Assembly (NCBI RefSeq): GCF_028882255.1
Contig: NZ_JARBUY010000002.1
Coordinates: 756,342-820,341, forward strand
DNA: 64,000 nucleotides
Source of the DNA: Maribacter polysaccharolyticus
Lineage (GTDB): Bacteria; Bacteroidota; Bacteroidia; Flavobacteriales; Flavobacteriaceae
Reading direction: 5' to 3'
The stretch's first letter is position 1, and each line of letters begins with the position of its first letter. The notes under the pieces were generated by a model that searched no databases, was not told where the DNA came from, and worked only from the letters and a program-made list of their open reading frames with translations. A program made the position numbers and the translations under genes. This document shows positions 9,034 to 64,000 of the stretch, one piece after another.

Positions 9034-10743
9034 CTACCACCCTGGGTTTTGGGTAAGGTTGGGGTTAAGTATCAGTTCATCCAACGGTATCGGTTGTAAA
9101 TAAGCTTTACTTTCGTCAAAATTGTAATTGCCCGTACTGGCAAATGGTAAAATAAATCCTTCAGAGTCCAAACTGGCATCCTCGGCACTCAATGTCTGGT
9201 TTACAATACCATCTTCCAAATAAGCACCTCTTGGCTGATCGCCATCAAACAGGCTGTGGGCCCTCCATCTATATAGGTCATCGGCCCTAAATCCTTCGGC
9301 CATCAACTCTACAGAACGTTCCCTACGTATTTCATACAAAACATCGGTCAACGTATAACCATAATTTGGCCAATCCTTATCAAAGGTAATGCTACCTAAA
9401 TTCATATGGGGCATGCCTACCCTGTCCCTTAATAAATTAATGGAAATGTCCAGATCTGATTGTGTTATTGTACCTAACTCTGCTTTAGCTTCGGCAAAGA
9501 TCAATAAGGCTTCGGCATATCTGAAGATGATCCTTGAAGTATCTTCGGTGAAATCACCATAATCCGAATCGTATTCCACATTCCTGTATTTTTCGGACTC
9601 ATAACCGGTTAAACTGGTATTCGTACCATTGAAATCGGGGTATTCCCAATAATCCTCATCCCCATTGGCATCAATTTCGATCAAATCACCGGGAACCATT
9701 AGGGTTGCTGCCAATCTCGGATCTCTATTCGTTTCTATTTTTGATAAGTCCGTGTTGCCTTGATATCTTGTACTTGCTGAAATCGGATCACCATCATCAC
9801 ATAAATAACTGTCTATGGCAAATTTGGTATACCCACAACGGTTAGGCCATTGTTGTTGTAAAACGTTGGCAATACTTAACGTGATCGAGTTGTAGTCCCT
9901 CCAAAGCATGACCTCACTATTTCCACTATAACCTACTTGGTTGAATAAAGTTTGGTAATCGCTGTATAAGGAGAATACACCACCGTTCATTACATCTTCG
10001 GCAGCATCGGCCGCTATTTGCAAGAATGAAGAACCATCTGAACCATCAACACCGAAATCGGTACCACTATGATATCTTTCCCATGTTCCTTCATAAAGGG
10101 CAACCCTAGCTTTGAACAGTTGGGCTACTTCTTTACTTATCCTAGGATGACCGGATATGTCCGGGAAGGATTGCAATAATGAAATCGCGGTGTCCAAATC
10201 GGAAATGATGAATTCGGCAACTTCATCCCTGGAATTCCTTGCAGCATAAATATATTCTTCATCGGTATTGTCAAAATACTCTGGGAAAATGGGGAGGTCC
10301 CCATAACTTTGCAATAAATTGAAATAATAATAGGATCTAAAAAAATAGGCTTCCCCGGTATATTGATCGATAAGGGTTTCATCCCCTTCAGCTTGATCGA
10401 CATGATCCAATAACCAGTTAGACTCCCTTACTTCATCCCAACTCCAAATGGAAGAGGTAGCCGAAGTGGGAACTTCATAGCTTAAGCCACTCAATCGATT
10501 ACTGGGTTCCTGTGCGGTTCCCATATCGGAATACATATCGGGTAAAATGTTAAATCCTATGGAAAGGGCTGACCAACCTGGCAAATCGTTGTAAAAGCCA
10601 TTTACTGCGGCCTGTAGATCTGAAGGCGTACTGTAGAAGGTAACTTCAGAAACTGAATCTAAGGGAGTTCTATCCAAGTAATCTTCACATGAAGTTGAAA
10701 ATAGAATCGTTCCTAGAATAAATATTTTAAATATATTTTTCAT
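9034..10743 (-). CDS. SusD/RagB family outer-membrane glycan-binding lipoprotein
   Basis: The 569-residue product begins with a lipoprotein signal peptide with lipobox LFSTSC (Cys19). It follows the SusD pattern: an N-terminal TPR-like region (YLDRTPLDSVSEVTFYSTP, then EAYFFRSYYYFNLLQSYGD) and the C-terminal RagB/SusD segment with IRRERSVELMAEGFRADDLY and FILPFASTG. It should sit on the cell surface as the lid of the SusC transporter and bind the glycan or glycopeptide. It is 18 bases downstream of susC in the same operon and is followed by a structured 3' UTR and a terminator. It is the only SusD in the window. Confidence 0.95.
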   Translation of the reverse strand: MKNIFKIFILGTILFSTSCEDYLDRTPLDSVSEVTFYSTPSDLQAAVNGFYNDLPGWSALSIGFNILPDMYSDMGTAQEPSNRLSGLSYEVPTSATSSIWSWDEVRESNWLLDHVDQAEGDETLIDQYTGEAYFFRSYYYFNLLQSYGDLPIFPEYFDNTDEEYIYAARNSRDEVAEFIISDLDTAISLLQSFPDISGHPRISKEVAQLFKARVALYEGTWERYHSGTDFGVDGSDGSSFLQIAADAAEDVMNGGVFSLYSDYQTLFNQVGYSGNSEVMLWRDYNSITLSIANVLQQQWPNRCGYTKFAIDSYLCDDGDPISASTRYQGNTDLSKIETNRDPRLAATLMVPGDLIEIDANGDEDYWEYPDFNGTNTSLTGYESEKYRNVEYDSDYGDFTEDTSRIIFRYAEALLIFAEAKAELGTITQSDLDISINLLRDRVGMPHMNLGSITFDKDWPNYGYTLTDVLYEIRRERSVELMAEGFRADDLYRWRAHSLFDGDQPRGAYLEDGIVNQTLSAEDASLDSEGFILPFASTGNYNFDESKAYLQPIPLDELILNPNLTQNPGW

Positions 10744-10761
10744 GATTATTTAATTTTTTAT

Positions 10762-13700
10762 TTAGAATGATAGATTTACACCCAAAGAAAGTATCCTTGA
10801 TAATGGGTAGGATTGTGCACTACCTGTCAATCCTGATGTATTCGTTTCAGGATCGAAGAACATCAAATCGGTAAAGGTGAATAGGTTTTCCCCTGTAGCA
10901 AAAATCCTTAGTTTATCTACACCGAACCTATTGGTAACATCATTCGGGATGGTAAAACCGACCTGTAGGCTTTTTAACCTTGTATAAGCGGCATTTTGCA
11001 TCAATCGATCCGTACTATAGCTATAGTTCTTGTTATTTCTACCTCCACCATTCAAATAAGGGGTAGGAAAATAACCATCGGTGTTTGCCCCTAAAGGACT
11101 GGTAGTATCTTCCGGTCTGAAATAATCCAAGTGACCTTCCCATACAAAGGCGTGGAACGGACCGTTGGCAGGACCTCTAAAACGTTGCTGGCTACCAAAA
11201 GACAAATCGCGTTTACCGACACCCTGTACCAAGGCATTGAAATCCCAGTTTTTGTAATTCATACCTAGGGTTACCGAATATTGGTAGCGTGGTGTTGAGT
11301 TACCGATCACGCCGTAATCCCCAGTATCACCGTACACATAATTACCTCGGTCTATGACATTGTCCCCGTTAAGGTCTTTGTACTGGATATCCCCTGCAAC
11401 ACGTGACCAGCCGGTTATGAACGAATAGTCGATATTTGAAGTGACTTCCGTAGCTGCTTCATCCGTTAAGAACAGACCTTCGGTCTGGAATCCCCAGATA
11501 TCTCCCAAGTCCTGACCTTCAAAATAGTTGGTCAAGGCTTTTGTGTCATTGGGGTATTCTACGATAGATCGTTTATAGTCACTTAAAACGGCTCTTATAC
11601 TATATCCGAAATCACCTAATTTTTGTCTCCAAGTAGTTTCTACTTCCCATCCTTGTACCCTTGATGTTCCAATATTCGTTAAAGGGGCTGAGGTACCTAA
11701 TTGAGCGGGTAAATCGGCTCCTTGGGCCGCCATACCTTCAATATCGGTACGGTACCAAGAGAAACCTAGATCAAGTTTACCGGTAAAAGCAGTTAGATCA
11801 AATCCAATATCGGTTGTTTTAACTTTTTCCCAAGTTAAATTCTCACTGGATATGTCCGGTGTTTGTGAAAAGGTCAAGCGTTCCCCATCAAATAGGTAAG
11901 AGGTTCCGGCCGTGTTCAACTCTATGGTCGAAAGGTATAGGTAATTATCAACATTTTGGTTACCCAGCGTACCATATGAACCTCTTAGTTTAAATGTACT
12001 GATGGCATCAATAGGCCAAAATTCCTCTTTGGCAACATTGTATCCTGCGGAGAAACTTGGGAATCCTGCCCATCGGTTATCCGGTTCAAATCTGGAAGAA
12101 CCATCCCTACGGTAACTGAATTCAAATAAATACTTCTCTTGATAGTTATATCTAAACCTACTGAATACACCTACGGTTGACCAATGGGATATAGCTTCAC
12201 TTACCGTTTGATCATCATCCAATGATGCGTTAAGTGAAATAATGTTATTACTGATCAAATAGTCCGATGAGGCGCCAAGGGCATAGTAATTGTTGACCTC
12301 ACTTTGAAAACCTACCGTAGCATGTAGATTATGGTCGTTAATCGATTTGTCATAGGTTGCGAAAATATTAGGGGAAAAGTATTCGTTGATCGCAACGGTC
12401 GGACTGTATGAAGTTGATGCTTGTGATACTTTGTCGACAAGGCCATTAGGGACGACGGTCTGACTGGCCAAGATATTTATCTCTTGGAAGTTGTTGTCCC
12501 TTTTGTAATTGAAATTGGCATTTATCCTAAGTCCGTCGAAAGGCTCGATAATGATCCTTGGTGAAAGAACGATTTGATCGTTTTCCGTTTTAACACGCTG
12601 ATAATCCCAAAATGGATAGTAGGTGTGTTGTAGTAATTCCAAACCATAAATGGGGTCGTACTGTGGTAAGGTGGGTTTGATTTTCGTAATCAGATCCAAT
12701 ACCCTTGATTTGTTCCAAAATGTAGTGTTACTGTTAGCTTCAGTTGGGAAATCGGTATAACTTTTCCTGTATTTACTCAATAATTCCAAGGTTAACCAAT
12801 CATTAACCTTACCGGATATCTTGGCATCTAAATTATACCTTTGATAAGATTCATCCCCAACCTTTAACAATCCGTCTTCATCATAAATACCGGCGGACAA
12901 ATAAAAATTCATTTTTTCAGTTCCTCCGGTTATATTTACGCTATGTTTTACTCTTTGCGCCCATTTTTTCATGATGATCTCATCCCAATCGGTCGCAGCA
13001 GTACCTTCAATACCGATGGTGCCATAATCCCAACCATTTCCTGAAGCGTTGGATACTATTGTCTGTGCACTGCCTGGACTTTCCATATTGGCCATGATGT
13101 TGGCTAAATCCGTTTCATCATAATAGGCCGATTGGTTGTTGTTCGTTCGGGCATCATTGATGGTATAGGCAAAATCTATGGGGCTGGCACTTTCTGGCCA
13201 TATCGATGGTTGGGTGATCGAATAGCTACTGTTGTAGTTCACTTTGATCTGCCCTTGTGAATTTTTACCACTTCGAGTGGTTACGATAATCGCACCAGCA
13301 GCGGCCTGGGAACCATAAATAGAGGCTGCGGCAGCATCTTTCAGAACGGAAACCGATTGAATATCCTCTGGGTCGATGTCATTTAAACTCATTTCAATTC
13401 CATCGATAAGTACCAATGGCTCGGCATCGCCGATACTCCCTGTACCACCACTTGTGACAAAACCACGAATATTGATATCCGAAGAAGCACCAGGCTCACC
13501 ACCAGAAGAAGAGTTGGATATTACAAGGCCGGGGGTTGTACCTTGTAACGATCTAAAAGCATTTGCAGTAGGTCTGTTTTCAAAAACCTCTGAACCTACT
13601 TGGGAAACCGCTGCTGTTAGGTTGATCTTCTTTTGAGTACCATAACCTACAACAACGACCTCATCCAACATGGCAACATCTTCTTCTAGTTGAACCTTAA

Positions 13701-14055
13701 TGGTAGACTGGCCTTTAACACTGACTTCTTTTGTGATAAAGCCGATGTAGGATACTACCAAAACTGCGTTGGGGGAACTTAATTGCATGGTGAAATTACC
13801 GTCAAAGTCAGTAGTAATACCATTGGTGGTTCCTTTTTCCACCACACTGGCGCCAGGTAAAGGCATACCATCCAAGGTGGTTACGGTACCACTGATCTGT
13901 TGTTGTTGAACAATGTCAACAGCGTTCTCAAATGCCAGTACGGGATTTGCGGTTAAACCAAATGTAACTGCACAGCAAAAATAAATAAGAGCTCGCACGG
14001 AGGGAATTTTAGTCCTTTTTTTTGTATGAAAAAGACTCGATAATTTGATTTTCAT
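10762..14055 (-). CDS. SusC/RagA TonB-dependent outer-membrane transporter
   Basis: The 1097-residue protein has a long signal sequence ending near residue 41 (ANPVLA). A carboxypeptidase-regulatory-like domain (about 53-126, with ISGTVTTLDGMPLPGASV) is followed by the DEVVVVGYGTQKK segment typical of SusC, a TonB plug and a large barrel that ends in SLGVNLSF. No STN domain precedes it, so direct sigma/anti-sigma signalling through this receptor is unlikely. It should carry oligosaccharides into the periplasm using TonB energy, paired with the SusD encoded just downstream. It is transcribed away from the nagB-fusion gene across a 466-bp region. Confidence 0.95.
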   Translation of the reverse strand: MKIKLSSLFHTKKRTKIPSVRALIYFCCAVTFGLTANPVLAFENAVDIVQQQQISGTVTTLDGMPLPGASVVEKGTTNGITTDFDGNFTMQLSSPNAVLVVSYIGFITKEVSVKGQSTIKVQLEEDVAMLDEVVVVGYGTQKKINLTAAVSQVGSEVFENRPTANAFRSLQGTTPGLVISNSSSGGEPGASSDINIRGFVTSGGTGSIGDAEPLVLIDGIEMSLNDIDPEDIQSVSVLKDAAAASIYGSQAAAGAIIVTTRSGKNSQGQIKVNYNSSYSITQPSIWPESASPIDFAYTINDARTNNNQSAYYDETDLANIMANMESPGSAQTIVSNASGNGWDYGTIGIEGTAATDWDEIIMKKWAQRVKHSVNITGGTEKMNFYLSAGIYDEDGLLKVGDESYQRYNLDAKISGKVNDWLTLELLSKYRKSYTDFPTEANSNTTFWNKSRVLDLITKIKPTLPQYDPIYGLELLQHTYYPFWDYQRVKTENDQIVLSPRIIIEPFDGLRINANFNYKRDNNFQEINILASQTVVPNGLVDKVSQASTSYSPTVAINEYFSPNIFATYDKSINDHNLHATVGFQSEVNNYYALGASSDYLISNNIISLNASLDDDQTVSEAISHWSTVGVFSRFRYNYQEKYLFEFSYRRDGSSRFEPDNRWAGFPSFSAGYNVAKEEFWPIDAISTFKLRGSYGTLGNQNVDNYLYLSTIELNTAGTSYLFDGERLTFSQTPDISSENLTWEKVKTTDIGFDLTAFTGKLDLGFSWYRTDIEGMAAQGADLPAQLGTSAPLTNIGTSRVQGWEVETTWRQKLGDFGYSIRAVLSDYKRSIVEYPNDTKALTNYFEGQDLGDIWGFQTEGLFLTDEAATEVTSNIDYSFITGWSRVAGDIQYKDLNGDNVIDRGNYVYGDTGDYGVIGNSTPRYQYSVTLGMNYKNWDFNALVQGVGKRDLSFGSQQRFRGPANGPFHAFVWEGHLDYFRPEDTTSPLGANTDGYFPTPYLNGGGRNNKNYSYSTDRLMQNAAYTRLKSLQVGFTIPNDVTNRFGVDKLRIFATGENLFTFTDLMFFDPETNTSGLTGSAQSYPLSRILSLGVNLSF

Positions 14056-14521
14056 AAGATTGTGAGTTTAGTATTTTACTTGAATAAAACGTTTGTAATT
14101 TCTTGTCATTAGTTGCATTTTCATTGACTCTCGTTGGTTTTAATTGGTTCCTAATTTGATGCTATTGTTATATGTTGCTAATTTTTAGTTAAAGAAATTG
14201 GGTTTGAGCCCGTTTTTTTAACAATTTTTTAAACTTATAAATTTCCTCTACTCGAAAAATTAAAATTTCGACCAATAGCACCTGCCCTTCGATAAATAAT
14301 GGATTTTGTCGTTTATCGCAATAATCGAATTTAAAGGGAATTGTTTCCTGATGCTCCGTGGTGTTCAATAAGTTGTTGTTTATGAGGTACTTTGGGGTTA
14401 ACTGGAAGTGTGTGGTGTTTAGGGATTTGTCTAAGGCCTATGGTTGTTGGTCGAAATTTTAGGTTTGGAAAGAAGTGTAAAAGATATTTTTAACTATCAA
14501 ATAAATCTAAAAGGAATCTTA
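14056..14521. other. Divergent regulatory region between susC and the nagB fusion
   Basis: This 466-bp AT-rich region should carry the promoters of the susCD operon (minus) and the nagB fusion (plus). A TAGGTTTG element is seen for the plus side; no clear TAnnTTTG element was found for susC. A plus-strand frame extends from 14444 into the nagB gene but lacks family similarity and is treated as leader. Confidence 0.5.
14460..14467 (+). promoter_or_regulatory. -7 promoter element for the nagB fusion
   Basis: TAGGTTTG matches TAnnTTTG exactly. Transcription from here would begin near 14474, after the upstream ATG at 14444, which supports the ATG at 14522 as the real start. No TTG element sits at ideal spacing. 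Confidence 0.4.
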
Positions 14522-16444
14522 ATGGGTGCAGAACTAATAAAATACACGGCAGCAGGTAAAATTGAAGAAACGCGTTTTGAGAAAATCCATAATGTTATTT
14601 TCGAATCATCGGATGAGGCTTCTTTGGTCGTGGCCCGGGAAATTGCCGATTTGATCAAGGAAAAGCAAGCTTTGGGCAAACCATGTGTTCTGGGTCTGGC
14701 AACAGGTTCTTCCCCGGTAAAGGTTTATGAGGAATTGGTAAGGATGCATAAGGAAGAAGGTTTGGGGTTTTCCAACGTGATCACTTTCAATCTTGATGAG
14801 TATTATCCAATGCAACGGGATAACATTCATAGTTATTACTATTTCATGCATGAGCACCTTTTCAACCATGTGGATATTTTACCCGAAAATATCAATATAC
14901 CCAGTGGTATAGTGAGCAGTGAGGATCTATATCAATATTGTATCAACTATGAAAATAAAATAAAATTACTCGGTGGATTCGATTTTCAGTTACTGGGGAT
15001 AGGGCGAACAGGTCATATAGGTTTTAATGAGCCCGGTTCCCATTTTAATTCAGGTACCAGAAGTATTACGCTTGACCATATGACCAGGGTCGATGCCGCC
15101 CCGGCTTTCTTGGGTATTGAAAATGTGCCTCGCAAAGCCATTACAATGGGCGTCGGAACGGTAAGAAGTGCCAAAAGGATCGTATTGCTCGCATGGGGGA
15201 TCAGCAAGGCCGATATTCTTAAAAAAACGATCGAAGGGGAAATTTCCTCCCATGTGCCCGCAACGTATTTGCAAGAACATGATAATACGACTTTTGTGTT
15301 GGATGAAGGGGCTTCATCGGAGCTTACAAGAATAAAGACCCCTTGGCTTGTAGGGTCTTGTAAATGGACGGAATCCTTAAAGTTAAAAGCCGTTGTTTGG
15401 TTAAGTGAAATGACGGGAAAACCATTTTTGAAGTTAACCGATAAGGATTACAATGATCACGGAATGTCCGATTTGTTGTCACTGGAAGGAACTGCTTATG
15501 ATTTGAACATAAAAATGTTCAATGAAATGCAGCACACCATTACGGGATGGCCCGGAGGGAAACCCAGGGCAGATGATACCTATCGTCCTGAAAGGGCAGA
15601 GCCCGAAAAGAAAAGGGTCATCATATTCAGTCCTCATCCCGATGATGATGTGATTTCCATGGGTGGTACTTTCGATAGATTGATCCAGCAAGGTCATGAA
15701 GTACACGTGGCCTACCAGACTTCCGGGAATATTGCCGTTTCCGATGTCGAAGCTTTAAAGTTTGCTGAAGTGGCCAATGTATTGGGTGCAAAACTCAAGG
15801 AGGCAAAAACCATTATCGATAAGCTCGCCGTGAAGACCGGGAATGAGATCGATTCCATTGAGGTACGCCAATTAAAAGGGTTGATCAGAAGGAGTGAGTC
15901 CTTGGCCGCAACACGTTATTTGGGTCTAAAGGATAAAAACGTACACTTTTTGGATTTGCCTTTTTATGAAACAGGGACTATAAAAAAGGGCAATCTCTCT
16001 GGCGCGGATATCGAAATTATGTGTAATATAATTGAAGAGATAAAACCACATCAAATCTACGCGGCGGGCGATTTGGCAGATCCACACGGGACCCATAAGG
16101 TGTGTTTGGATGCGTTATTCAAGGCTTTGGATGTCCTTAAATATGATGAGACGCATAAGTTTATGGAAGATTGTTGGGTCTGGTTGTACCGTGGGGCTTG
16201 GCACGAGTGGGAATCCTATGAAATTGATATGGCGGTTCCCATGAGTCCGGATCAAGTGCTTAAAAAACGACATGCCATATTCTGTCATCAGTCCCAAAAA
16301 GATGGTGTCATGTTCCAAGGGGATGACAGCAGGGAGTTTTGGGTAAGGGCCGAGGATAGGAATCGATTGACCGCTAAGAAATACAACGCCTTAGGCTTGG
16401 CAAATTATGAAGCCATTGAGGCTTTTAAACGATATCATTATTAA
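14522..16444 (+). CDS. nagB: Glucosamine-6-phosphate deaminase fused to a PIG-L/LmbE-type deacetylase domain
   Basis: The 640-residue chain has two domains. Residues 25-290 are NagB-like: VLGLATGSSPVKVYEEL, FNLDEYYP (Asp92, equivalent to the E. coli catalytic base) and GIGRTGHIGFNEPGS (His165, Glu170). Where E. coli NagB has the triad Asp141, this protein has Thr163. Residues 365-640 are a PIG-L/LmbE zinc deacetylase domain with FSPHPDDDVISMGGT (His372, Asp375) and DPHGTH (His525), so the zinc ligands are intact. The start at 14522 follows an AAAGGA sequence. The enzyme should turn glucosamine-6-phosphate into fructose-6-phosphate. The second domain may deacetylate an N-acetylglucosamine derivative, which is inference. 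It is cytoplasmic and fits GlcNAc from N-glycans. Confidence 0.85.
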   Translation: MGAELIKYTAAGKIEETRFEKIHNVIFESSDEASLVVAREIADLIKEKQALGKPCVLGLATGSSPVKVYEELVRMHKEEGLGFSNVITFNLDEYYPMQRDNIHSYYYFMHEHLFNHVDILPENINIPSGIVSSEDLYQYCINYENKIKLLGGFDFQLLGIGRTGHIGFNEPGSHFNSGTRSITLDHMTRVDAAPAFLGIENVPRKAITMGVGTVRSAKRIVLLAWGISKADILKKTIEGEISSHVPATYLQEHDNTTFVLDEGASSELTRIKTPWLVGSCKWTESLKLKAVVWLSEMTGKPFLKLTDKDYNDHGMSDLLSLEGTAYDLNIKMFNEMQHTITGWPGGKPRADDTYRPERAEPEKKRVIIFSPHPDDDVISMGGTFDRLIQQGHEVHVAYQTSGNIAVSDVEALKFAEVANVLGAKLKEAKTIIDKLAVKTGNEIDSIEVRQLKGLIRRSESLAATRYLGLKDKNVHFLDLPFYETGTIKKGNLSGADIEIMCNIIEEIKPHQIYAAGDLADPHGTHKVCLDALFKALDVLKYDETHKFMEDCWVWLYRGAWHEWESYEIDMAVPMSPDQVLKKRHAIFCHQSQKDGVMFQGDDSREFWVRAEDRNRLTAKKYNALGLANYEAIEAFKRYHY

Positions 16445-16487: not shown

Positions 16488-17198
16488 TTATATTGATGAA
16501 TCGAGTATTTTTTGCTTTACTTCATCAATATAGGATTTGCCTATGACATATCTCAGACCTTCGATTTCCACGCTATTGCCTTCAACGGCATCTATTTTAT
16601 TGATAGCTACGGTATACGATCTATGTATGCGTATAAAATCTTCGCTGGGCAAAAGGTCCGTGAAATTTGTTAAAGTGCTATGGATGATATACCTGCCTGT
16701 GGTAGTGTTTATTTTTAAATAGTCTTTTAGCGATTCCACGGTCAATATTTCGTCCAAAAAAATCTTCTTCATTTTCTTTTTGTCTATTTTCACGAAAATG
16801 AACGGACGCTTTTCGGCCTTGCCCAAGGAGGTGTTCGTATTTTTGAGTCTTCTGTTGACTTTATTGAGGGCTTTCATGAACCTTGGGAACTCAAAAGGTT
16901 TCACCAAGTAATCGATTACGTCCAATTCGTAGGTTTCCAAGGCAAACTCGTCATAAGCGGTGGTAACGATCAAAAGTGGGGGGTCTTCCAAGCTCTTTAT
17001 AAAATTTATACCATCCAATACGGGCATGTTGATATCCAAAAAAATGACATCGACGGTGTTGCTTTTTAGAAAGTTCAGGGCATCTACCGCATTATTGAAC
17101 GTTTCCGATATTTCAAAATCGTCCAATTGATCCAAGTAGTTTTTTATAACGTTGATTGCAAGGGGCTCATCATCGACTATCAGACATTTTATCTTCAT
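16488..17198 (-). CDS. LytTR-family response regulator
   Basis: The 236-residue protein has an N-terminal receiver domain (CLIVDDEPLAINVI, phosphoacceptor Asp55 in VIFLDINMP, and PFEFPRF near residue 101). A C-terminal LytTR DNA-binding domain spans about 135-235 (EILTVESLKDYLKI, FIRIHRSYTVAINKID). LytTR proteins bind imperfect direct repeats near promoters. It overlaps the sensor-kinase gene by four bases. The pair is placed between the susCD/nagB part and the GH92-PNGase gene run, so it is the best candidate for the local regulator. Confidence 0.93.
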   Translation of the reverse strand: MKIKCLIVDDEPLAINVIKNYLDQLDDFEISETFNNAVDALNFLKSNTVDVIFLDINMPVLDGINFIKSLEDPPLLIVTTAYDEFALETYELDVIDYLVKPFEFPRFMKALNKVNRRLKNTNTSLGKAEKRPFIFVKIDKKKMKKIFLDEILTVESLKDYLKINTTTGRYIIHSTLTNFTDLLPSEDFIRIHRSYTVAINKIDAVEGNSVEIEGLRYVIGKSYIDEVKQKILDSSI

Positions 17199-24572: not shown

Positions 24573-24579
24573 GGAAATT

Positions 24580-48476: not shown

Positions 48477-48486
48477 AATAGCAGAC

Positions 48487-55667: not shown

Positions 55668-57152
55668 ATGAATAAGATATATAAGTTGTTGGTGGTAATG
55701 CTCCTTCCCCTAATGATAGGGTGTAAGCAGATGGAGGTACCTCAAAGACCCAACTTTGTATTTATCATGGTCGATGATCTGGGGAAAGAATGGATAGAAT
55801 CGTATGGGGCAACGGAAATCGAAACCCCTAACATCAATAAGTTGGCAGAAACGGGAATTACATTCGACAATGCCTACTCCATGCCACAGTGTACACCCAG
55901 TCGGGTGGCCTTGATTACAGGACAATATCCGTTTGCCAATGGGTGGATAAACCATTATGATGTACCCCGTTGGGGGCATGGGGTGAATTTTGATGCCGAT
56001 AAAAATCCAAGTTTTGCCAAAGCCTTGCAAAATGACGGATATGCCACCTGTATAGCGGGAAAGTGGCAGATCAATGATTTTAGGATCGAACCCAAAGCCA
56101 TGGAAAATGCGGGTTTTCAGGAATATTGTATGTGGACGGGGTACGAGTCGGGTAATAAACCCAGTGAAAATCGGTATTGGGACCCTTATATCTTCACGAA
56201 AAATGGCAGCAAGACCTATGAAGGTGAATTTGGACCCGATATTTTTTCGGATTTTATCATCGACTTTATGTCAAAGAACAAGGATAAGCCCCTTTGTGTT
56301 TATTATCCAATGGTTTTAACACATGCCCCTTTTGTGCATACACCCCACGAACCTGAGGCAAAAACCAAATACCAAAAGCATCAGGCGATGGTACGTTATA
56401 CCGATTTCATTATCGGGAAAATAGTGAAGTCATTGGAAGATAATGGTTTGCTGGATAATACATACCTCCTATTCACCACCGATAATGGCACCTCCAATGG
56501 CATCATAGGAAAAAGGGATGAGGTTTATGTTCGGGGAGGGAAATCGTTTTTAACCGAAAACGGGATCAATGCGCCCTTTTTGGTCTTGACCCCCGATAAG
56601 ATGCATTTTACGACCGATGCCCTTATCGACTTTACCGACATATACCCGACATTACTTGATTTGGCGAATGTCGGGAATAAGGCCGAAACGAACGGCTACT
56701 CATTTGCGGATGTATTGAAAGGGGAGCGTGTAATCGGCAAGCGGGATTGGATATTGGCTATGGGAGGACTATCGGCAAAAATAGGTGAGGACGATCGAAT
56801 GGAAAATTGGTTCCAATTTAGGGACCGTGTGCTTCGCGATAGGCGATATAAGGTGTATACCGATACTTTAAAACGCATTGTAAGGGTGTTCGATTTACAG
56901 TCAGACCCTTATGAAACCCATAATCTGATTGGAGAAGGGGCATCGGCCCAGGTACTTGAAAAATTCGAAGGTATATTGAATGGTCTTCCTGATCGGGATG
57001 CACAGCCTGTTTATACCAAAACAGTGGATAGCCTATACAATGTGCCTATTGAAAAATTGAATTGTTGCGGTGGGCCGAAAGGAGCTAGAAAAACGAATAT
57101 GTTGCCTCTGGCGACCGAAGAGGCATTTTTAAAATTAAGTAGTAAGGAATAA
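55668..57152 (+). CDS. S1 family sulfatase, lipoprotein (8)
   Basis: The 494-residue protein has a lipobox (LMIGC, Cys19), PNFVFIMVDDLGKEWIESYG and the signature SMPQCTPSRVALITGQYPFA with Cys75. LFTTDNGTSNGIIGKRDEVY and GINAPFLVLTPDKMHFT follow. The C-terminal stretch LPDRDAQPVYTKTVDSLYNV with a CC pair (LNCCGGPKG) is distinct from the other sulfatases. A 101-bp gap precedes it; TGTATTTG at 55605-55612, one mismatch from the -7 consensus, could be an internal promoter. Confidence 0.9.
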   Translation: MNKIYKLLVVMLLPLMIGCKQMEVPQRPNFVFIMVDDLGKEWIESYGATEIETPNINKLAETGITFDNAYSMPQCTPSRVALITGQYPFANGWINHYDVPRWGHGVNFDADKNPSFAKALQNDGYATCIAGKWQINDFRIEPKAMENAGFQEYCMWTGYESGNKPSENRYWDPYIFTKNGSKTYEGEFGPDIFSDFIIDFMSKNKDKPLCVYYPMVLTHAPFVHTPHEPEAKTKYQKHQAMVRYTDFIIGKIVKSLEDNGLLDNTYLLFTTDNGTSNGIIGKRDEVYVRGGKSFLTENGINAPFLVLTPDKMHFTTDALIDFTDIYPTLLDLANVGNKAETNGYSFADVLKGERVIGKRDWILAMGGLSAKIGEDDRMENWFQFRDRVLRDRRYKVYTDTLKRIVRVFDLQSDPYETHNLIGEGASAQVLEKFEGILNGLPDRDAQPVYTKTVDSLYNVPIEKLNCCGGPKGARKTNMLPLATEEAFLKLSSKE

Positions 57153-57170: not shown

Positions 57171-57959
57171 TTGGAAAGAAGGAAATTTTTAAAGTATGTA
57201 GGGGCCACCTCCATTTATATTGGGGTTTCTTCCTGCGCATCGACAGGTTTTTTTAGAAGGAAGTACGATGAAGGGGTATGTAGGGAAGCATGGGGCAAGC
57301 TTGCGAACAAGGGTGAAGCCTTTGCATATGTAAATCCGGATAAGAAACTTCCCAATGTGTTTATTTATGGCGATTCCATTTCAATAGGCTATACCCCAAC
57401 CGTAAGAACCGAATTGGAAGGAAAAGCCAATGTGTTTAGGTTTCATAAAAACGGACAATCAAGTAATAAGTTCATCCCTTTTATGGAAAAAATGAAAACG
57501 ACCATGTTTCAGCCTTACTTGAAAGGTGGTTGGGATTTCGATTGGGATGTTATTCATTTTAATGTCGGGTTGCACGATTTAAAATATGTAAAAAACGGTA
57601 AGCTCGATTTAGAGAACGGAAAGCAGGTAAACACCATTGAAAAGTATAAGGAAAACCTACATGGGATTTGTGAATATCTGATGAAGGAATATCCAAAAGC
57701 AAAATTGATTTTTGCTACGACCACCGCAGTTCCTGATGAAGGTGCCGATGGCAGGGTTGCAGGCGATAGTGTAAAGTACAACAAAGCGGCTTTGGAGGTT
57801 TTGGCCGGTTATCCATCAATTGCCATTAACGATTTATACAGCTTTACCAAACCCAATGCCAAGGACTGGTACATAAAACCCCATAACGTACATTATAACG
57901 ATTTAGGTAAAAAAGAACAGGGGAAAGAAGTTGCGAAAATTATTGCTGAAAACTTGTAA
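57171..57959 (+). CDS. SGNH/GDSL hydrolase with Tat-like lipoprotein signal
   Basis: The 262-residue product appears to start at TTG 57171, since no in-frame ATG lies at the signal peptide. The N-terminus MERRKFLKYVG has a twin-arginine-like motif and a lipobox (GVSSC, Cys22). The SGNH signature is VFIYGDSISIGYTP with Ser69, then NVGLHDLKY (block III) and PHNVHYNDLG near the end with the likely catalytic His241. The usual Asp two residues before that His is Asn239. It is probably a carbohydrate esterase that removes acetyl or similar groups; this is inferred from position among glycosidases. Confidence 0.8.
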   Translation: MERRKFLKYVGATSIYIGVSSCASTGFFRRKYDEGVCREAWGKLANKGEAFAYVNPDKKLPNVFIYGDSISIGYTPTVRTELEGKANVFRFHKNGQSSNKFIPFMEKMKTTMFQPYLKGGWDFDWDVIHFNVGLHDLKYVKNGKLDLENGKQVNTIEKYKENLHGICEYLMKEYPKAKLIFATTTAVPDEGADGRVAGDSVKYNKAALEVLAGYPSIAINDLYSFTKPNAKDWYIKPHNVHYNDLGKKEQGKEVAKIIAENL

Positions 57960-57961: not shown

Positions 57962-59815
57962 ATGAACAGAATAGTACTCATTATATCATTATTTCTTATT
58001 TCCATAACCGGGGAGGCACAAAAGAATTCCCCGAATTTCATTCCACAGCCCGAATCCGTTCAGTTTTCCGATGGCGTGTTTGTTCTCGACCAGATCACTA
58101 AGGTAATCGTTCCCAAAAAATTCAGGGAACAACTCATACCTTATGTCGCTGAAAAGATACAATCCGATTTAGGTCTCAACCTCGTGTATTCCTATAACGG
58201 GCCCGATAAAGGGGAAAAACACATTCTATTTAAATTGGAAAAAAAGGCTTCGTTAAAAGAAGAAGGCTATCACCTTATTATTGGCCCCGAATCGATTGTG
58301 GTCATGGCAAAAGACTATGCCGGACTATTCAATGGCTTTCAGACCTTACGGCAAACATTCCCATTGGAAAGTACCGGGGAAGTCCGTATACCCGCTATGG
58401 AGGTTAAGGACAATCCCAGGTTTCAATGGCGTGGAATCATGTTGGATGTTTCCAGACATTTTCAACCCAAGGAATTTATCCTAAAACAAATAGACGTACT
58501 TTCTTCCTACAAGGTGAACAAATTCCACTGGCATTTAACAGATGACCAAGGGTGGCGTATCGAAATCAAAAAGTATCCCAAGCTAACGGAAAAAGGAGCT
58601 TGGAGAGCGGATAGAAGTGGCATTGCATGGTGGGAAAGGGAAAAAGCCACAGCGGAAGAGCCCAAAACCGTTGGAGGGTTTTATACCCAAGAGGAAATCA
58701 AGGAAGTTATCGCCTATGCCAAGGTAAGGAATGTCGAGATCATTCCTGAAATAGATGTGCCCGGCCATAGTAAAGCACTTGTGGCATCCTATCCTGAACT
58801 GTTTTGCTATGATGATCCAGAAGCCGATTTTGAAGTGGCCGTTGGCGGTAAAGCCCCTGACAATACGGTTTGTCCAGGTAAGGAATATTCCTATGGATTC
58901 CTGAACGACGTCATTAAGGAAGTCGCTGCATTGTTCCCTTCCCAATATTTGCATATCGGCGGTGATGAGTGCAATAAAAAGAACTGGAAAAAGTGTCCGT
59001 ATTGCCAAAAGGCAAAATTGGATAACGGATTGGAGGATGAGGAAGAATTACAAAGTTATTTTATCCAGCGTATTCACGAATTGGTTAAAAAACAAAAGAA
59101 GACCATGATCGGTTGGGATGAGATTTTGAGTGGAAATGGAGCCCCGGGAGCTACGATCATGGCTTGGAGAAGAGGAAAATACACACCACAGATCACGGCC
59201 CCCCAAGAAGGTTACCCTACGATTATGACATCCTATAAATATTCTTATATTAGTCAGGTACAGGGACCTACCATTACAGAACCGGAAGGACCAAAGGTCG
59301 TTTTACCGCTTTCAAAGGTTTATGGCCATGAGCCGGTCGCAGCCGAACTTACTGAAGCCCAAAAAGAATTGGTACTGGGTAACCAAGCAAGTTTATGGGG
59401 GGAGTTTACACCTACCCAAGAACATTGCGAGTATATGCTATACCCTAGGGCAATAGCCAGTGCTGAGGTTTCATGGAGTTTGCCCGAAACCAAGAATTGG
59501 GAACGTTTTCAAACCGCTTTGGAAGATTACCATTTTGACAAATTGGAGCGTAAAGGTATTAACGTCTCTAAAAGTTTGTACAGTGTATACCCGTCCTACA
59601 CGATTGACGAATTGCATGGTGAAGCCATCGTCTACTTACAGACCGAGAGTGTAGGGTATGAGATCAGGTACACCTTGGATGGCTCGGAACCTGATATTGA
59701 TAGTGCGGTATATACCAAGGCGTTTAGGGCAGAACCCAAAAGCCTACTTAAAGCCGCCTTGTTCAATGACAAAGGGGAACAAAAAGGAAAAACCTTGGAA
59801 TTAAGATTGAAATAA
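57962..59815 (+). CDS. GH20 beta-N-acetylhexosaminidase, secreted
   Basis: The 617-residue protein has a signal peptide (ending ITGEAQ), a GH20b domain (28-145) and the GH20 barrel: WHLTDDQGWRIEIKKYPKL and LHIGGDECNKKNWKKCPYCQ with catalytic Asp335-Glu336. The end is a short chitobiase-C-like beta domain (YEIRYTLDGSEPDIDSAVYT). It lacks the CBM32-like tail of the GH20 at 25878. It starts two bases after the SGNH gene. It should remove terminal beta-GlcNAc or GalNAc, perhaps once sulfate has been cleared by the adjacent sulfatase. Confidence 0.94.
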   Translation: MNRIVLIISLFLISITGEAQKNSPNFIPQPESVQFSDGVFVLDQITKVIVPKKFREQLIPYVAEKIQSDLGLNLVYSYNGPDKGEKHILFKLEKKASLKEEGYHLIIGPESIVVMAKDYAGLFNGFQTLRQTFPLESTGEVRIPAMEVKDNPRFQWRGIMLDVSRHFQPKEFILKQIDVLSSYKVNKFHWHLTDDQGWRIEIKKYPKLTEKGAWRADRSGIAWWEREKATAEEPKTVGGFYTQEEIKEVIAYAKVRNVEIIPEIDVPGHSKALVASYPELFCYDDPEADFEVAVGGKAPDNTVCPGKEYSYGFLNDVIKEVAALFPSQYLHIGGDECNKKNWKKCPYCQKAKLDNGLEDEEELQSYFIQRIHELVKKQKKTMIGWDEILSGNGAPGATIMAWRRGKYTPQITAPQEGYPTIMTSYKYSYISQVQGPTITEPEGPKVVLPLSKVYGHEPVAAELTEAQKELVLGNQASLWGEFTPTQEHCEYMLYPRAIASAEVSWSLPETKNWERFQTALEDYHFDKLERKGINVSKSLYSVYPSYTIDELHGEAIVYLQTESVGYEIRYTLDGSEPDIDSAVYTKAFRAEPKSLLKAALFNDKGEQKGKTLELRLK

Positions 59816-59825
59816 AAAAGGGATT

Positions 59826-61313
59826 ATGAAAAAATATGGAATCTTACCGATACTGTTCTTTTGTCTTCAGTTACTTACGGCCCAAGAAAGACCCAATATC
59901 GTTTACATCATCTGTGATGATTTAGGGTATGGGGATGTACAGGCCTTAAACCCTGAAAAAGGAAAAATCCTAACCCCGAAAATAGATGCGTTCGCTAAAG
60001 AAGCGATGACATTTACCGATGCACACTCGGCCTCTGCCGTATGTACACCATCCCGATATGCCATTTTAACCGGGCGATATTCATGGCGTTCAAGATTACA
60101 AAAAGGTGTTTTGGCAAGTGGAGATGAATTGGAACCTTTAATTGATGCCGATAGGATGACGGTGCCAAAAATGCTCAAGGAAGTGGGCTATAAAACAACC
60201 GCCATTGGCAAATGGCACCTTGGGTTTAAGTTTGTTGACGATGAAGGTAATCCAGTTCAGGTTTATGATGGTAAAAAAGTTGTTGGACCGGCAATCGGAT
60301 CAACGGTTCCAAACGGACCTATTACACGTGGTTTTGATTCCTATGTAGGATTTCACCATTCAAGGGTTATGAAAACAGTTATAAAGGATGATAAAGTGGT
60401 CGATATGATGCCTCCCATTGAAATGTTACAATTTTTAGCCGAAAATGCTGAAAATTATATCGCAGAGGAGGCTAAGGACGATACGCCGTTTTTTATGTAT
60501 TTGGCTTTGAATTCACCCCATAGCCCTGTAGTGCCATCAGAGGCCTGGCAAGGTAAAAGTGGTATGGGCGCTTATGCCGATTTCGTGATGGAAACCGATG
60601 ATGTGGTGGGTCGTGTACTTGAAGCCTTGGAGAAAAACGGTATTGCGGATAATACGTTGGTTTTCTTTACCAGCGACAATGGTTGTTCGGCCCCGGTTGC
60701 CAAAGCAGGGAAATTGGAAAAAGAATTCGGTCATTACCCCAGTGCGGATTTTAGGGGATACAAATCAGATATTTGGGAAGGTGGCCATCGGATCCCGTTT
60801 ATCGTCAAATGGCCCGGGAAGATCAAACCCAATACAACCAATAGCCAGCTTATCTGCCAGACGAGTTTAATGGCAACCTGTGCAGCGATCACCGGTGCGG
60901 ATTTGGATGCCGATGATGGTGTGGATTCGTACAGTATTCTTCCGTTATTGAAAGACAATAAGGCCAAAACGGATTATGAATTGGTGGTGCACCATTCCAT
61001 TAATGGGAAATTCTCCATTAGAAATAAAAAATGGAAATTGGAATTGACTCCAGGTTCCGGAGGATGGAGTGCCCCAACAGATAAAAAAGCCATAATGGAG
61101 GGTTTGCCCCAGATACAGCTGTATAACATGAAAAAGGATTGGAGGGAAACCACGAATGTGTATAAAAAGCATCCAAGAATTGTAAATCGATTGACGGCGG
61201 AATTAATTCGGATTGTTGATAACGGGAGAACAACGGTAGGTACGTCACAGAAAAATGATGTGCCGATAGATATCTATAAAACCGGGAATAGCGAAGCAGG
61301 AACAACACATTGA
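59826..61313 (+). CDS. S1 family sulfatase, secreted (9)
   Basis: The 495-residue protein has a signal peptide (LQLLTAQ) rather than a lipobox, PNIVYIICDDLGYGDVQALN and the signature SASAVCTPSRYAILTGRYSW with Cys73. FFTSDNGCSAPVAKAGKLEK and SDIWEGGHRIPFIVKWPGK complete the S1 pattern. It is a paralogue of the sulfatase at 49869, sharing the Asp-Asp-Leu-Gly-Tyr-Gly-Asp-Val start, the LQKGVL loop and the RIVDNGRTTVGTSQKNDVP tail. It begins ten bases after GH20. Confidence 0.93.
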   Translation: MKKYGILPILFFCLQLLTAQERPNIVYIICDDLGYGDVQALNPEKGKILTPKIDAFAKEAMTFTDAHSASAVCTPSRYAILTGRYSWRSRLQKGVLASGDELEPLIDADRMTVPKMLKEVGYKTTAIGKWHLGFKFVDDEGNPVQVYDGKKVVGPAIGSTVPNGPITRGFDSYVGFHHSRVMKTVIKDDKVVDMMPPIEMLQFLAENAENYIAEEAKDDTPFFMYLALNSPHSPVVPSEAWQGKSGMGAYADFVMETDDVVGRVLEALEKNGIADNTLVFFTSDNGCSAPVAKAGKLEKEFGHYPSADFRGYKSDIWEGGHRIPFIVKWPGKIKPNTTNSQLICQTSLMATCAAITGADLDADDGVDSYSILPLLKDNKAKTDYELVVHHSINGKFSIRNKKWKLELTPGSGGWSAPTDKKAIMEGLPQIQLYNMKKDWRETTNVYKKHPRIVNRLTAELIRIVDNGRTTVGTSQKNDVPIDIYKTGNSEAGTTH

Positions 61314-61338
61314 TACCACTTTAAAGAACAAGGATTTT

Positions 61339-63669
61339 ATGTTAATAGGAAAAAGAAAAATAGCGGTTACGATTTGTTTTGTACTAGGCGTTCTAGTCAT
61401 GGTTTCTTGTTCCACGGCAAAACCGACAAACGAAAAAGTACAACAGGAAAAGCAACCGGTAGATTATATAGACCCTATTATTGGAGCCATTACCTATGGG
61501 AAAAAATCCAAAGATGCCCATGGTTTTGGAAAAACATTTCCGGGTGCCGCAACCCCTTTTGGCTTGGTACAATTAAGTCCGGATACTTTTACGGGTGGTG
61601 ATAATGGTTCGGGCTATTCGTACGAGCATCCAACACTCGAAGGTTTCAGTTTTACACATATGAGCGGTGTAGGTTGGTTTGGCGATTTGGGCAACTTTTT
61701 AGTGACGCCCACAACCGGTAAATTACATACGAATAGAGGTGTTCCTGAAAACCCGGAAGATGGTTACCGATCTCGGTTTTCACATGATACCGAGGTAACC
61801 AAAGCAGGCTATTACGCAGTGACTTTAGCCGATTATAAAGTAAAGGCGGAATTGACGGCGGCACCAAGGGCAGGAATAATCAGATTCACTTATCCGGAAA
61901 ATGACAGTTCACGAATTCAAATCGATTTATCACGTCGCGTTGGTGGTACATCAACGGAACAATACATCAGGGTAGTTGACGAAAACACGATTGAAGGCTG
62001 GATGAAATGTCCCCCGGAAGGTGGTGGCTGGGGCGCTGGGGCCGGTAACGCCGATTACGTGGTGTATTTCCATTGCCAATTTAGCAAGCCGTTAAAAGAC
62101 TACGGAATATGGAGTGCCGATATTCCTGACGTGCCTAGAAAGATGCGTTTTATCAGAAGGGATAATTATCAGGATGCAGTTAAAAATGCCGAAATTTTTA
62201 AAGGTAGAAATGAAATGCAAGGCAAGCATTTAGGGTTTTATACCGATTTCAGCACAAAAGAAGGTGAACAGGTGTTGGTGAAAAGCGGCATTTCATTCGT
62301 GAGTATCGCAGGTGCCAAGGAAAATCTCGAGCACGATATCGATCATTGGGATTTCGACAAAACCAGGCAAGAAGCACGTGACTTATGGAGTACGGCCATT
62401 TCAAACATAGCGGTATCCGGTGCAACCGATAGGGAAAAAACCATTTTTTACACCGCACTTTATCATACCTTAATCGATCCTCGGGCTTTTTCAGACGTAA
62501 ACGGAAACTATATAGGGGCCGATAAACAAGTGCACCAAACCGATAATTTTACTTACCGTACTATTTTTAGTGGTTGGGATGTGTTTCGTTCACAATTTCC
62601 GTTGCAAACCATTATCAATCCTGCATTGGTCGATGATGAAATCAATTCCCTATTACAAATGGCAGCGTTAAGTGGTCGCGAATATTTACCACGCTGGGAA
62701 ATGCTGAATTCCTATTCGGGCGTAATGTTGGGGAATCCGGCAGTTTCGGTAATTAACGATGCTTACCAAAAAGGAATTCGTAACTACGATGTGGAAAAAG
62801 CCTTTGAGTATTCATTGAACACGGTGAACAACACAGGAAATGGTGAGTTAGGGTATTCACACAAGCACATTTCCAAAACCTTGGAGTATGCCTATTCCGA
62901 TTGGGCGTTGGCAACCTTTGCACAAGCGTTGGGCAAAAATGGGATTGCCGAAACCTATTTCGAAAAAAGTAAAAATTATAAGAATATCTGGAACGATGAA
63001 GTCAACTGGTTTAGGGCTAAGGACAGTACCGGAACTTGGTTGGAATGGAAAGGGAAAACCGTTCATGGCCAAGGGTGTATTGAAAGTAATCCGTTTCAAC
63101 AAGGTTGGTTTGTGCCCCACGATATCGATGGGTTAAAGACTTTGATGGGTGGTGAAGAAGCTTTTAAAAATGAATTGATCACTTTTTTTGAAAACACGCC
63201 CGAAGACTTTCTTTGGAATAACTATTACAACCATGCCAATGAACCTGTGCATCATGTACCGTTTATGTTCAATGAAGCCGGTGTACCGCACTTGACCCAA
63301 AAATATACCCGTAAAATTTGTGATAAGGCTTACGGTATCGATGCTTACGGATTATGCGGTAATGAGGATGTAGGTCAAATGTCTGCGTGGTATGTGTTGG
63401 CTTCCATTGGTATTCATCCCATAAATCCGGGGGATAATAAATACCAAATCACGAGTCCGGTTTTCAATGATGTCGAAATTAAATTGGACAGCAACTATTA
63501 TTCAGGAAAAACATTCAGGATTATCGCCCATAACAATTCAAAAGAAAATATTTATATACAAACAATCAAATTGAATGGAAAACCATTGGATCGCTTTTGG
63601 ATTTCTCACGAAGAAATCACCAAAGGTGGTGTTTTGGAATTTGAAATGGGTCCAGAACCAAAGATATAA
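61339..63669 (+). CDS. GH92 alpha-mannosidase, second copy, lipoprotein
   Basis: The 776-residue product has a lipobox (MVSCS, Cys24). GH92 hallmarks are FGKTFPGAATPFGLVQLSPD, EGFSFTHMSGVGWFGDLGNF, EYAYSDWALATFAQALG, YNHANEPVHHVPFMFNEAG and GNEDVGQMSAWYVLASIGIH. It differs from the GH92 at 18367 in the substrate-binding loops (ANEPVHHV versus GNEPSHHI, and a KCPPEGGGWGAGAGNADYVV insert). A different linkage preference is therefore likely. It is separated by 25 bases from the preceding sulfatase. Confidence 0.94.
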   Translation: MLIGKRKIAVTICFVLGVLVMVSCSTAKPTNEKVQQEKQPVDYIDPIIGAITYGKKSKDAHGFGKTFPGAATPFGLVQLSPDTFTGGDNGSGYSYEHPTLEGFSFTHMSGVGWFGDLGNFLVTPTTGKLHTNRGVPENPEDGYRSRFSHDTEVTKAGYYAVTLADYKVKAELTAAPRAGIIRFTYPENDSSRIQIDLSRRVGGTSTEQYIRVVDENTIEGWMKCPPEGGGWGAGAGNADYVVYFHCQFSKPLKDYGIWSADIPDVPRKMRFIRRDNYQDAVKNAEIFKGRNEMQGKHLGFYTDFSTKEGEQVLVKSGISFVSIAGAKENLEHDIDHWDFDKTRQEARDLWSTAISNIAVSGATDREKTIFYTALYHTLIDPRAFSDVNGNYIGADKQVHQTDNFTYRTIFSGWDVFRSQFPLQTIINPALVDDEINSLLQMAALSGREYLPRWEMLNSYSGVMLGNPAVSVINDAYQKGIRNYDVEKAFEYSLNTVNNTGNGELGYSHKHISKTLEYAYSDWALATFAQALGKNGIAETYFEKSKNYKNIWNDEVNWFRAKDSTGTWLEWKGKTVHGQGCIESNPFQQGWFVPHDIDGLKTLMGGEEAFKNELITFFENTPEDFLWNNYYNHANEPVHHVPFMFNEAGVPHLTQKYTRKICDKAYGIDAYGLCGNEDVGQMSAWYVLASIGIHPINPGDNKYQITSPVFNDVEIKLDSNYYSGKTFRIIAHNNSKENIYIQTIKLNGKPLDRFWISHEEITKGGVLEFEMGPEPKI

Positions 63670-63677
63670 AAGGGATA

Positions 63678-63840
63678 ATGATGACACCAATCCCATTGAA
63701 GTCCATAAAACAAATGAAGAGTAAAATAGTGTGCTCATCGCTGGTTTTGTTATGTATGGCTTGTGAACAACCGAAAAGCAAACGCTTTTTATAAAGATCT
63801 AGAAAACAATAAAAGACCCGTAGGGGAAATTAAGGCATAA
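63678..63840 (+). pseudogene. Remnant of a lipoprotein gene with internal deletion
   Basis: A 38-codon frame (63678-63794) holds a complete lipoprotein signal peptide (VCSSLVLLCMACEQPKSK) and then stops. Shifting frame, the bases just before 63840 read YKDLENNKRPVGEIKA and stop, which looks like the C-terminus of a secreted enzyme. The simplest reading is a gene that lost its middle. It sits between GH92 and the next sulfatase with the usual short spacing. Confidence 0.5.
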
Positions 63841-63844
63841 AAGA

Positions 63845-64000
63845 ATGAATGAATTGATGCTGAATAACAATAAATTACTATCAATCAGTTCGGTAGTATT
63901 CATATTGCTGATATTGGTCGGTGGTGTTTCAGCCCAAAGTCAGCAACCTCCTAACATCATACTTATAAATGCAGACGATTTAGGTTATGGAGACCTCAGT
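63845..64000 (+). CDS. S1 family sulfatase, N-terminal part, cut by window end (10)
   Basis: The frame from ATG 63845 runs 52 codons to the window edge. It encodes a signal peptide (VVFILLILVGGVSAQS) followed by PPNIILINADDLGYGDLS, the N-terminal metal-binding segment of S1 sulfatases. The formylglycine site lies beyond the window. A second ATG at 63857 is an alternative start. It shows that the sulfatase-rich run continues past 64000. Confidence 0.88.
   Translation, partial: MNELMLNNNKLLSISSVVFILLILVGGVSAQSQQPPNIILINADDLGYGDLS

Follow-up and report, generated by a model that had tools for sequence, protein, structure and literature searches.

A window of 64,000 nucleotides from the 4.76 Mb genome of Maribacter polysaccharolyticus (G000:C14:756342-820341) contains most of a gene cluster that we interpret, with a probability of roughly 60%, as a polysaccharide utilization locus (PUL) for sulfated, fucosylated N-linked glycans of marine eukaryotes, taken up either free or as glycopeptides, and consisting of two modules that also occur apart. 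The glycans handled are probably xylosylated as well. Loci in which both modules are joined are read as N-glycan loci because PNGase, glycosylasparaginase or both are encoded within ten of 11 of them, because their GH130 protein is nearest to the phosphorylase UhgbMP, and because their first sulfatase is nearest to sulfatases of 6-sulfated N-acetylglucosamine (GlcNAc). The reading is further supported by the sulfatase module itself, which includes a GH92 alpha-mannosidase in all 15 loci compared and a GH20 beta-hexosaminidase in 14. An enzyme that cuts the GlcNAc-asparagine bond, alpha-mannosidases, beta-hexosaminidases and a predicted Man-beta1,4-GlcNAc phosphorylase were thus all found by sequence in this type of locus.

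Genes were called by Pfam scans of the window genes and of the 13 kb by which the cluster continues. All enzymes listed in an earlier note on this stretch were recovered where it had placed them: one PNGase F-type amidase, two GH92, two GH20, one GH130, a NagB/PIG-L fusion, two GH29, one GH95, two GH30 and two GH3 proteins, and nine complete family S1 sulfatases with part of a tenth, which begins at 63845, is cut by the window end and is complete in the genome (L001:2187-3734). The ten sulfatases are numbered S1 to S10 by gene order. The genes of the locus within the window are as follows (assigned by Pfam, with additional evidence in brackets):

9034-10743, minus strand: SusD-like outer-membrane glycan-binding protein (PF07980 and PF14322)
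10762-14055, minus: SusC-like TonB-dependent transporter
14444-16444, plus: NagB/PIG-L fusion, glucosamine-6-phosphate deaminase-like (NCBIfam NF002557, 1043 bits)
16488-17198, minus: LytTR response regulator
17195-18253, minus: sensor histidine kinase (PF06580)
18367-20616, plus: core, GH92 alpha-mannosidase a
20637-22514, plus: core, SSF sodium:solute symporter a
22522-23496, plus: core, GH130, nearest to UhgbMP
23502-24572, plus: core, CBM9-domain protein
24550-25692, plus: core, GHL10, predicted TIM-barrel glycosidase, start perhaps 24580 (predicted model)
25878-28214, plus: GH20 beta-hexosaminidase a
28259-29440, plus: PNGase F-type amidase, predicted group 1 (PF09112 and PF09113)
29616-31430, plus: SSF symporter b
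31432-33066, plus: sulfatase S1, nearest to the 6-sulfated GlcNAc sulfatases of S1_11
33096-34175, plus: GH29 alpha-L-fucosidase a
34206-35747, plus: sulfatase S2
35758-37350, plus: GH29 alpha-L-fucosidase b
37361-38755, plus: GH30 a
38791-41397, plus: GH3 a, beta-xylosidase-like (NCBIfam Xyl3A, 1035 bits, cut-off of 1250 not reached)
41412-42986, plus: sulfatase S3 (38% identity to S1)
43016-44344, plus: sulfatase S4
44351-46123, plus: sulfatase S5
46143-48476, plus: GH95
48379-49869, plus: sulfatase S6, true start probably near 48487
49869-51419, plus: sulfatase S7
51427-54126, plus: GH3 b (also NCBIfam)
54133-55566, plus: GH30 b
55668-57152, plus: sulfatase S8
57171-57959, plus: GDSL lipase/esterase-like protein
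57962-59815, plus: GH20 beta-hexosaminidase b
59826-61313, plus: sulfatase S9
61339-63669, plus: GH92 alpha-mannosidase b
63845-64000, plus: sulfatase S10, first 52 residues

The whole cluster measures about 68 kb and extends 13 kb beyond the window, to C14:833256, with S10, a DUF2961 protein, a third GH29, a beta-helix protein, a third GH20, a 555-residue protein and a third GH92 following in that order. From the GH92 gene at 18367 to the final GH92 gene all genes lie on one strand, mostly spaced by a few to tens of bases and by 185 at most. Most of the enzymes have N-termini that, judged by eye, resemble those of secreted proteins or lipoproteins; GH130 has no such N-terminus. Just outside the locus, at 6150-7684 of the window, two small kinase-like genes (an APH-type phosphotransferase and AAA_33) adjoin an inositol-monophosphatase gene.

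A PNGase scan of named genomes gave 14 loci; this collection is biased toward PNGase, so frequencies were taken from a sample of 397 genomes of the family. Four of the 14 loci, in Jejuia pallidilutea, an uncultured Maribacter, Algibacter miyuki and A. lectus, adjoin sulfatase and fucosidase genes of the window type. At the other ten (eight with full 10 kb flanks, two with shorter ones) none of the ten sulfatases was matched at E 1e-4. A search with S2 in 11 of those 14 genomes matched five, namely the four with joined loci and M. luteus. Among the 397 family genomes S2 was matched in 13: in eight closely (at least 76% identity, the window genome included), in three at 64-65% and in two at 46-50%. 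In a survey of the class (295 genomes, again including the window genome) a close S2 was found only in the window genome, and three other genomes had relatives of 43-45%.

The comparison covered 15 loci, the window included, with the Jejuia genome (G149 and G400) counted once; gene presence was scored at 50% identity, and counts are lower bounds where an examined stretch ends. Distant S2 relatives in G318 (50%) and G421 (46%) and a second copy in G309 (48%) were left out of the 15. In G318 genes similar to GH3a, GH30a and GH29b (50-55%) lie by S2 and the PNGase is on another contig; the surroundings in G421 and of the second G309 copy are unlike the module. In 11 of the 15 loci the core GH92a-SSFa-GH130-CBM9-GHL10 stands beside the sulfatase module. 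In G309 CBM9 and GHL10 are found at the far end of the locus, and in G427 GH130 lies just beyond the examined edge and was placed by a separate search, GH92a and SSFa not being seen. The module has an invariant set of seven genes, S2, S3, S6, S9, GH29b, GH95 and GH92b, present in all 15 loci; with the window counted, GH20b occurs in 14, S1 and GH3b in 13, and GH29c and GH20c in 12.

Some local replacements were observed within these loci. G427 encodes a 766-residue DUF5703/GH95-like protein (L071:4643-6943) between S1 and S2, where other loci have GH29a, and G253 has a gene of the same length at the matching place. In A. lectus an MFS transporter (L036:11528-12832) lies between PNGase and S1, in the position of SSF symporter b of the window. 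An internal TAA was flagged in the S2 matches of G149, G150, G201, G316 and G414 despite open frames of 497-509 residues; in each case it is probably just the regular stop codon, close to where the match ends.

In the family sample GH130 was matched at E 1e-100 in 65 genomes and PNGase at E 1e-50 in 35. GH130 is present in 8 of 8 genomes with a close S2 and in 57 of the 389 others (Fisher p 3.5e-7), and PNGase in 4 of 8 and 31 of 389, respectively (p 0.003); when the three genomes with S2 at 64-65% are added the counts become 9 of 11 for GH130 (p 2e-6) and 4 of 11 for PNGase (p 0.01), all of these p values treating genomes as independent and ignoring shared ancestry. PNGase is found in four of the eight joined loci of this sample.

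The host is a general feeder on sulfated glycans, with 52 sulfatases, ten of which fall within 1.5% of the genome (naive binomial p 4e-9, though sulfatase genes cluster elsewhere too). Further dense sulfatase clusters lie at G000:C15:698500-738156 and C11:808730-1001239. That the genes are neighbors by chance is unlikely chiefly because the cluster is conserved in 14 other loci, which is weightier than the binomial value; with seven module genes in every locus and the join in 11, a pure chance neighborhood was rejected.

The PNGase consists of the N-glycanase N and C domains without the N-terminal bowl domain, and its closest solved relatives are 3ks7 (370 bits) and 4qhb. In an alignment that took in 18 of 24 sequences, a single column holds Asp in 14 short and Gly in four long homologs, the latter assigned to group 2 by their length; the window protein has Asp191. 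An Asp/Gly position has been described as defining two groups, of which group 2 (Gly) acts on glycans with core alpha1,3-fucose (PMC9522356, in the portion available). The window PNGase would therefore belong to group 1 and is predicted not to tolerate core alpha1,3-fucose, so that Asp191 makes this type of core an unlikely target. PNGase is encoded in seven of the 11 joined loci, window included, and is absent from four, in whose genomes no match was obtained at E 1e-50, a threshold at which remote PNGase-like proteins were not searched for. The proposal that PNGase is the key defining the system was rejected on these grounds. In Jejuia pallidilutea an 835-residue protein that combines a type IX sorting domain with a match to the PNGase F C-terminal domain (42 bits; L050:5820-8327) sits between SusC and the LytTR/kinase pair, and is possibly a second, secreted PNGase-like protein.

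A second enzyme of this kind adjoins GHL10 in eight of the 11 joined loci. In small glycopeptides, glycosylasparaginase cleaves between GlcNAc and Asn. The protein in Jejuia is a member of PF01112 that matches the E. meningoseptica glycosylasparaginase at 404 bits and isoaspartyl peptidases at about 115. It has an NHDT motif, which we take to be the self-cleavage site, and the other seven copies within loci are 73-79% identical to it. Copies are also present in three core loci free of sulfatases (L039, L040 and L043).

The GH130 protein scores 495 bits against UhgbMP (4udg), 453 against a beta-1,4-mannooligosaccharide phosphorylase and 409 against TM1225, with enzymes for beta-1,2-mannosides and mannosylglucose far lower, and is thus closest in sequence to N-glycan phosphorylases of the UhgbMP type, which act on Man-beta1,4-GlcNAc. 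GHL10, which each of the 11 joined loci and three of the sulfatase-free PNGase loci encode, has no sequence match in the PDB. Its predicted structure, built from eight sequences (mean pLDDT 73), is a TIM barrel that matches many glycosidase folds, with TM scores to the query of 0.40-0.63 among the 50 matches listed. GHL10 was considered as the missing endo-glycosidase and set aside, these fold matches being too general to identify an enzyme that lacks a PDB sequence match.

All ten sulfatases keep the formylglycine motif C-x-P-[ST]-R. S1, S2, S6 and S9 were compared with PDB sequences. S1 matches, over nearly its full length, 7p24, a mucin-desulfating sulfatase (614 bits), and 5g2v, a GlcNAc-6-sulfatase (542 bits). 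We take these to be BT3177 and BT4656, and S1 groups by sequence with them among the S1_11 sulfatases of 6-sulfated GlcNAc. It most likely removes 6-O-sulfate from GlcNAc, with mannose 6-sulfate or L-galactose 6-sulfate as possible alternatives. The nearest solved relatives of S6 (arylsulfatase A, 263 bits) and S9 (an S1_15 enzyme, about 232 bits) are remote, as are all those of S2. Specificities were also sought in NCBIfam and could not be assigned from it, all hits, mostly to arylsulfatase and choline-sulfatase models, being below threshold. The start of S6 is placed near 48487 on the basis of its orthologs, which have 454-489 residues in other loci.

Taken together, these families suggest the following pathway, in which we infer substrate, order of steps and localization from gene content and linkage. 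The SusC/SusD pair would import the glycan, with expression controlled by the histidine kinase and LytTR regulator. The group 1 PNGase would cut the GlcNAc-Asn bond, and in related loci glycosylasparaginase may act beside it or replace it. Ten sulfatases would strip the sulfate groups, S1 most likely the 6-O-sulfate of GlcNAc. As is usual for their families, GH29 and GH95 would then take fucose, GH3 and perhaps GH30 xylose or glucose, GH20 the terminal N-acetylhexosamine and GH92 alpha-mannose. On the basis of gene order and of the relationship to UhgbMP, an SSF symporter may bring the remaining Man-beta1,4-GlcNAc into the cytosol, where GH130 would split it into mannose 1-phosphate and GlcNAc and NagB would help to feed the latter into glycolysis.

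GH3a is xylosidase-like by sequence, below the curated cut-off. The nearest PDB relatives of GH30a score 110-115 bits and include glucosylceramidases, and GH30b reaches 182 bits against the NCBIfam endo-1,6-beta-glucanase model (cut-off 700). The 555-residue protein (L001:11317-12984), found in seven of 15 loci including that of the window genome, has no Pfam domain above cut-off and a weak match to GH67-like alpha-glucuronidases (E 0.0024).

A number of observations weigh against the interpretation of the locus as an N-glycan PUL. The GH30 proteins, GH3b, GHL10, DUF2961 and the 555-residue protein are without an assigned role. No beta-galactosidase, sialidase, GH18 or GH85 domain was found by Pfam in the scanned locus genes, which leaves antennae that bear galactose without an explanation. 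In favor of the interpretation, sulfate is known on galactose, GlcNAc, mannose and core fucose in the N-glycans of marine animals, namely oyster, brittle star, sea cucumber and a gastropod (PMC7616688; also PMC6994554 and PMC8699351, in the parts available). The structures published for oyster, sea cucumber and brittle star fit only partly, as their antennae are often galactosylated and are not obviously served by the locus; marine algae or invertebrates, named in the earlier note, may be the source. The S1_11 subfamily includes sulfatases of L-galactose 6-sulfate and mannose 6-sulfate as well (PMC10154612, PMC13063451, in the text available). G309 is the sole joined locus with neither amide-cleaving enzyme inside. 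Each of the 15 genomes has one glycosylasparaginase gene (at least 50% identity). In eight genomes it lies within the locus; in the other seven, among them that of the window, it lies elsewhere. Hence only its placement in the locus is informative, not its presence. Finally, four of the 15 loci (M. luteus, G316, G292 and G022) are split, the module standing alone behind its own SusC/SusD, and two of these genomes (G316 and G022) have neither a PNGase at E 1e-50 nor such a GH130 at E 1e-100.

The split loci raise the possibility that two pathways lie side by side, the core serving ordinary oligomannose N-glycans and the module a different sulfated glycan containing fucose and mannose, the two being linked for no other reason than their usefulness on the same particles. 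Consistent with this, the core occurs without sulfatases in the examined flanks of Maribacter, Aquimarina and Flavivirga loci, and M. luteus (S2 83%, outside the 397-genome sample) encodes its PNGase core on another contig with its own SusC. The stand-alone module may also be controlled differently: among the split loci, ECF sigma and FecR genes were looked for in M. luteus and G316 and found in both. They precede the M. luteus locus, whose SusC has an N-terminal extension with an STN domain; the G316 SusC has an extension in which Pfam reports no STN. Over 1097 aligned residues the window SusC shares 88% identity with its M. luteus counterpart; it lacks the extension, and the window SusD is 88-89% identical to the SusD at that stand-alone module. 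A short SusC together with a histidine kinase/LytTR pair was found in the window, Jejuia, the uncultured Maribacter and G309; joining or separating the modules seems to have brought a switch of control. However, the joined window locus has a single SusC/SusD pair, and this pair is of the stand-alone module type; glycosylasparaginase and PNGase are placed between core and module; and the join recurs in 11 loci, including those of all eight close-S2 genomes in the family sample (M. luteus, from outside it, being split). We therefore consider two independent pathways unlikely, while keeping them as the most serious rival. As to the joint N-glycan and sulfatase/fucosidase locus postulated in the earlier note, the join is borne out by its recurrence and by the families found in it; the idea of a single dedicated system has to be relaxed, since the two parts are not inseparable: the module stands alone in four of 15 loci, PNGase is missing from four of the 11 joined ones, and the core is also found free of sulfatases. 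A second LytTR regulator and a TPR histidine kinase lie on the minus strand directly after the locus (L001:15408-17958), with no match of at least 50% in what was examined of the other 14 loci, the stretch being shorter for some.

Two further explanations place the substrate outside N-glycans. The PUL might be directed at algal sulfated alpha-mannan or a fucose-containing sulfated polysaccharide, the N-glycan genes being side activities: the available accounts report GH92 and sulfatases in sulfated-mannan PULs and GH29 and GH95 with GH30, GH3 and others in predicted PULs for fucose-containing sulfated polysaccharides (PMC6298971, PMC13063451), and Maribacter is described as common on macroalgae (PMC10233909, in part). 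This is improbable given that GH20, the UhgbMP-type GH130 and the enzymes of the GlcNAc-Asn bond would be left unexplained. In addition, the genes scanned with Pfam gave no domain of GH99 type and none of GH76, GH88, GH43 or GH117 (GH195 itself was not searched for), and the only matches of the beta-helix protein, GH141 and pectate-lyase-like, stay below threshold. No endo-fucanase domain appeared in the Pfam scans, which may lack some such families, though GH29, GH95 and sulfatases are present. Less probable still is that the locus serves glycosaminoglycans or sulfated, mucin-like O-glycans from marine animals: GH92, GH130 and PNGase are ill suited to O-glycans, and no beta-galactosidase, sialidase or uronidase domain was found among the scanned genes, apart from the weak GH67-like match of the 555-residue protein. 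GH20, GH29 and GH95 are compatible with mucin too. Sulfatases of the S1_11 and S1_15 types serve mucin breakdown in gut Bacteroides, according to the sections available of PMC10154612.

A more specific form of the preferred interpretation, that of a PUL for sulfated and fucosylated N-glycans, can be offered tentatively, at less than even odds. In Flavobacteriaceae, the one family in which it was found here, the locus might encode a dedicated pathway for a marine N-glycan not yet seen, which would bear sulfate on several sugars, more than one fucose and probably xylose, but no galactose; the pathway might have arisen by the joining of an ECF-sigma-controlled sulfatase/fucosidase module to a kinase-controlled N-glycan core, the transporter losing its signaling extension as control passed. 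If so, the enzyme set describes the glycan ahead of its observation. A 2023 review states that carbohydrate-active enzymes specific for the N-glycans of algae, protists, molluscs and others are yet to be discovered (PMC10154615), and enzymes for sulfated N-glycans are said to be lacking (PMC8379841), as far as the available portions of both go. The locus is a concrete candidate source of the former, occurring in cultured strains that include Jejuia pallidilutea DSM 21165 and Algibacter lectus DSM 15365, and it supplies sulfatases, fucosidases and hexosaminidases as candidates for the latter. The split and joined versions allow the role of the sulfatase module in N-glycan use to be tested directly.

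No description of such a locus was found in the open-access literature, searched by titles and abstract openings and with most subscription journals outside its scope. The earlier note did not recognize a described pathway here. PULs rich in sulfatases and GH92 that possibly target glycoprotein have already been discussed (PMC6298971), and GH92 and GH20 genes for host glycans have been reported in blooms (PMC10877868), both in the text available. PULs for sulfated alpha-mannan in Polaribacter share with the window GH92, several family S1 sulfatases and an S1_11 member; they differ in having a GH195/GH99-type endo-mannanase and GH88, and PNGase, glycosylasparaginase and GH20 are unmentioned in the available accounts of them (PMC6298971, PMC13063451). 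The gut sulfatases F1-ORF13 (PMC8379841) and BT3177 (PMC10154612) are described in the parts available as acting on 6-sulfated GlcNAc of N- or O-glycans, and S1 falls in the sequence group of BT3177; these are single enzymes of gut bacteria rather than a marine N-glycan locus. The plant N-glycan pathway of Bacteroides massiliensis shares PNGase, GH92, a GH3 beta-xylosidase, GH29, GH20 and stepwise exo-action, but its locus tags are scattered, its PNGase is of group 2 (Gly) and no sulfatase is among the enzymes discussed in the available text (PMC9522356), whereas Maribacter has one locus with a PNGase assigned to group 1, ten sulfatases and GH130. Also related are the sulfatase-free PNGase loci of Maribacter polysiphoniae, M. 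luteus, Aquimarina and Flavivirga, which share the core GH92-SSF-GH130-CBM9-(GHL10)-GH92-PNGase, in three cases with glycosylasparaginase, and differ by having no sulfatase in the examined 10 kb flanks, additional GH92 genes and another SusC. Judging from the relatives, the locus is an apparently ordinary N-glycan cassette joined to a sulfatase/fucosidase cassette able to stand alone.

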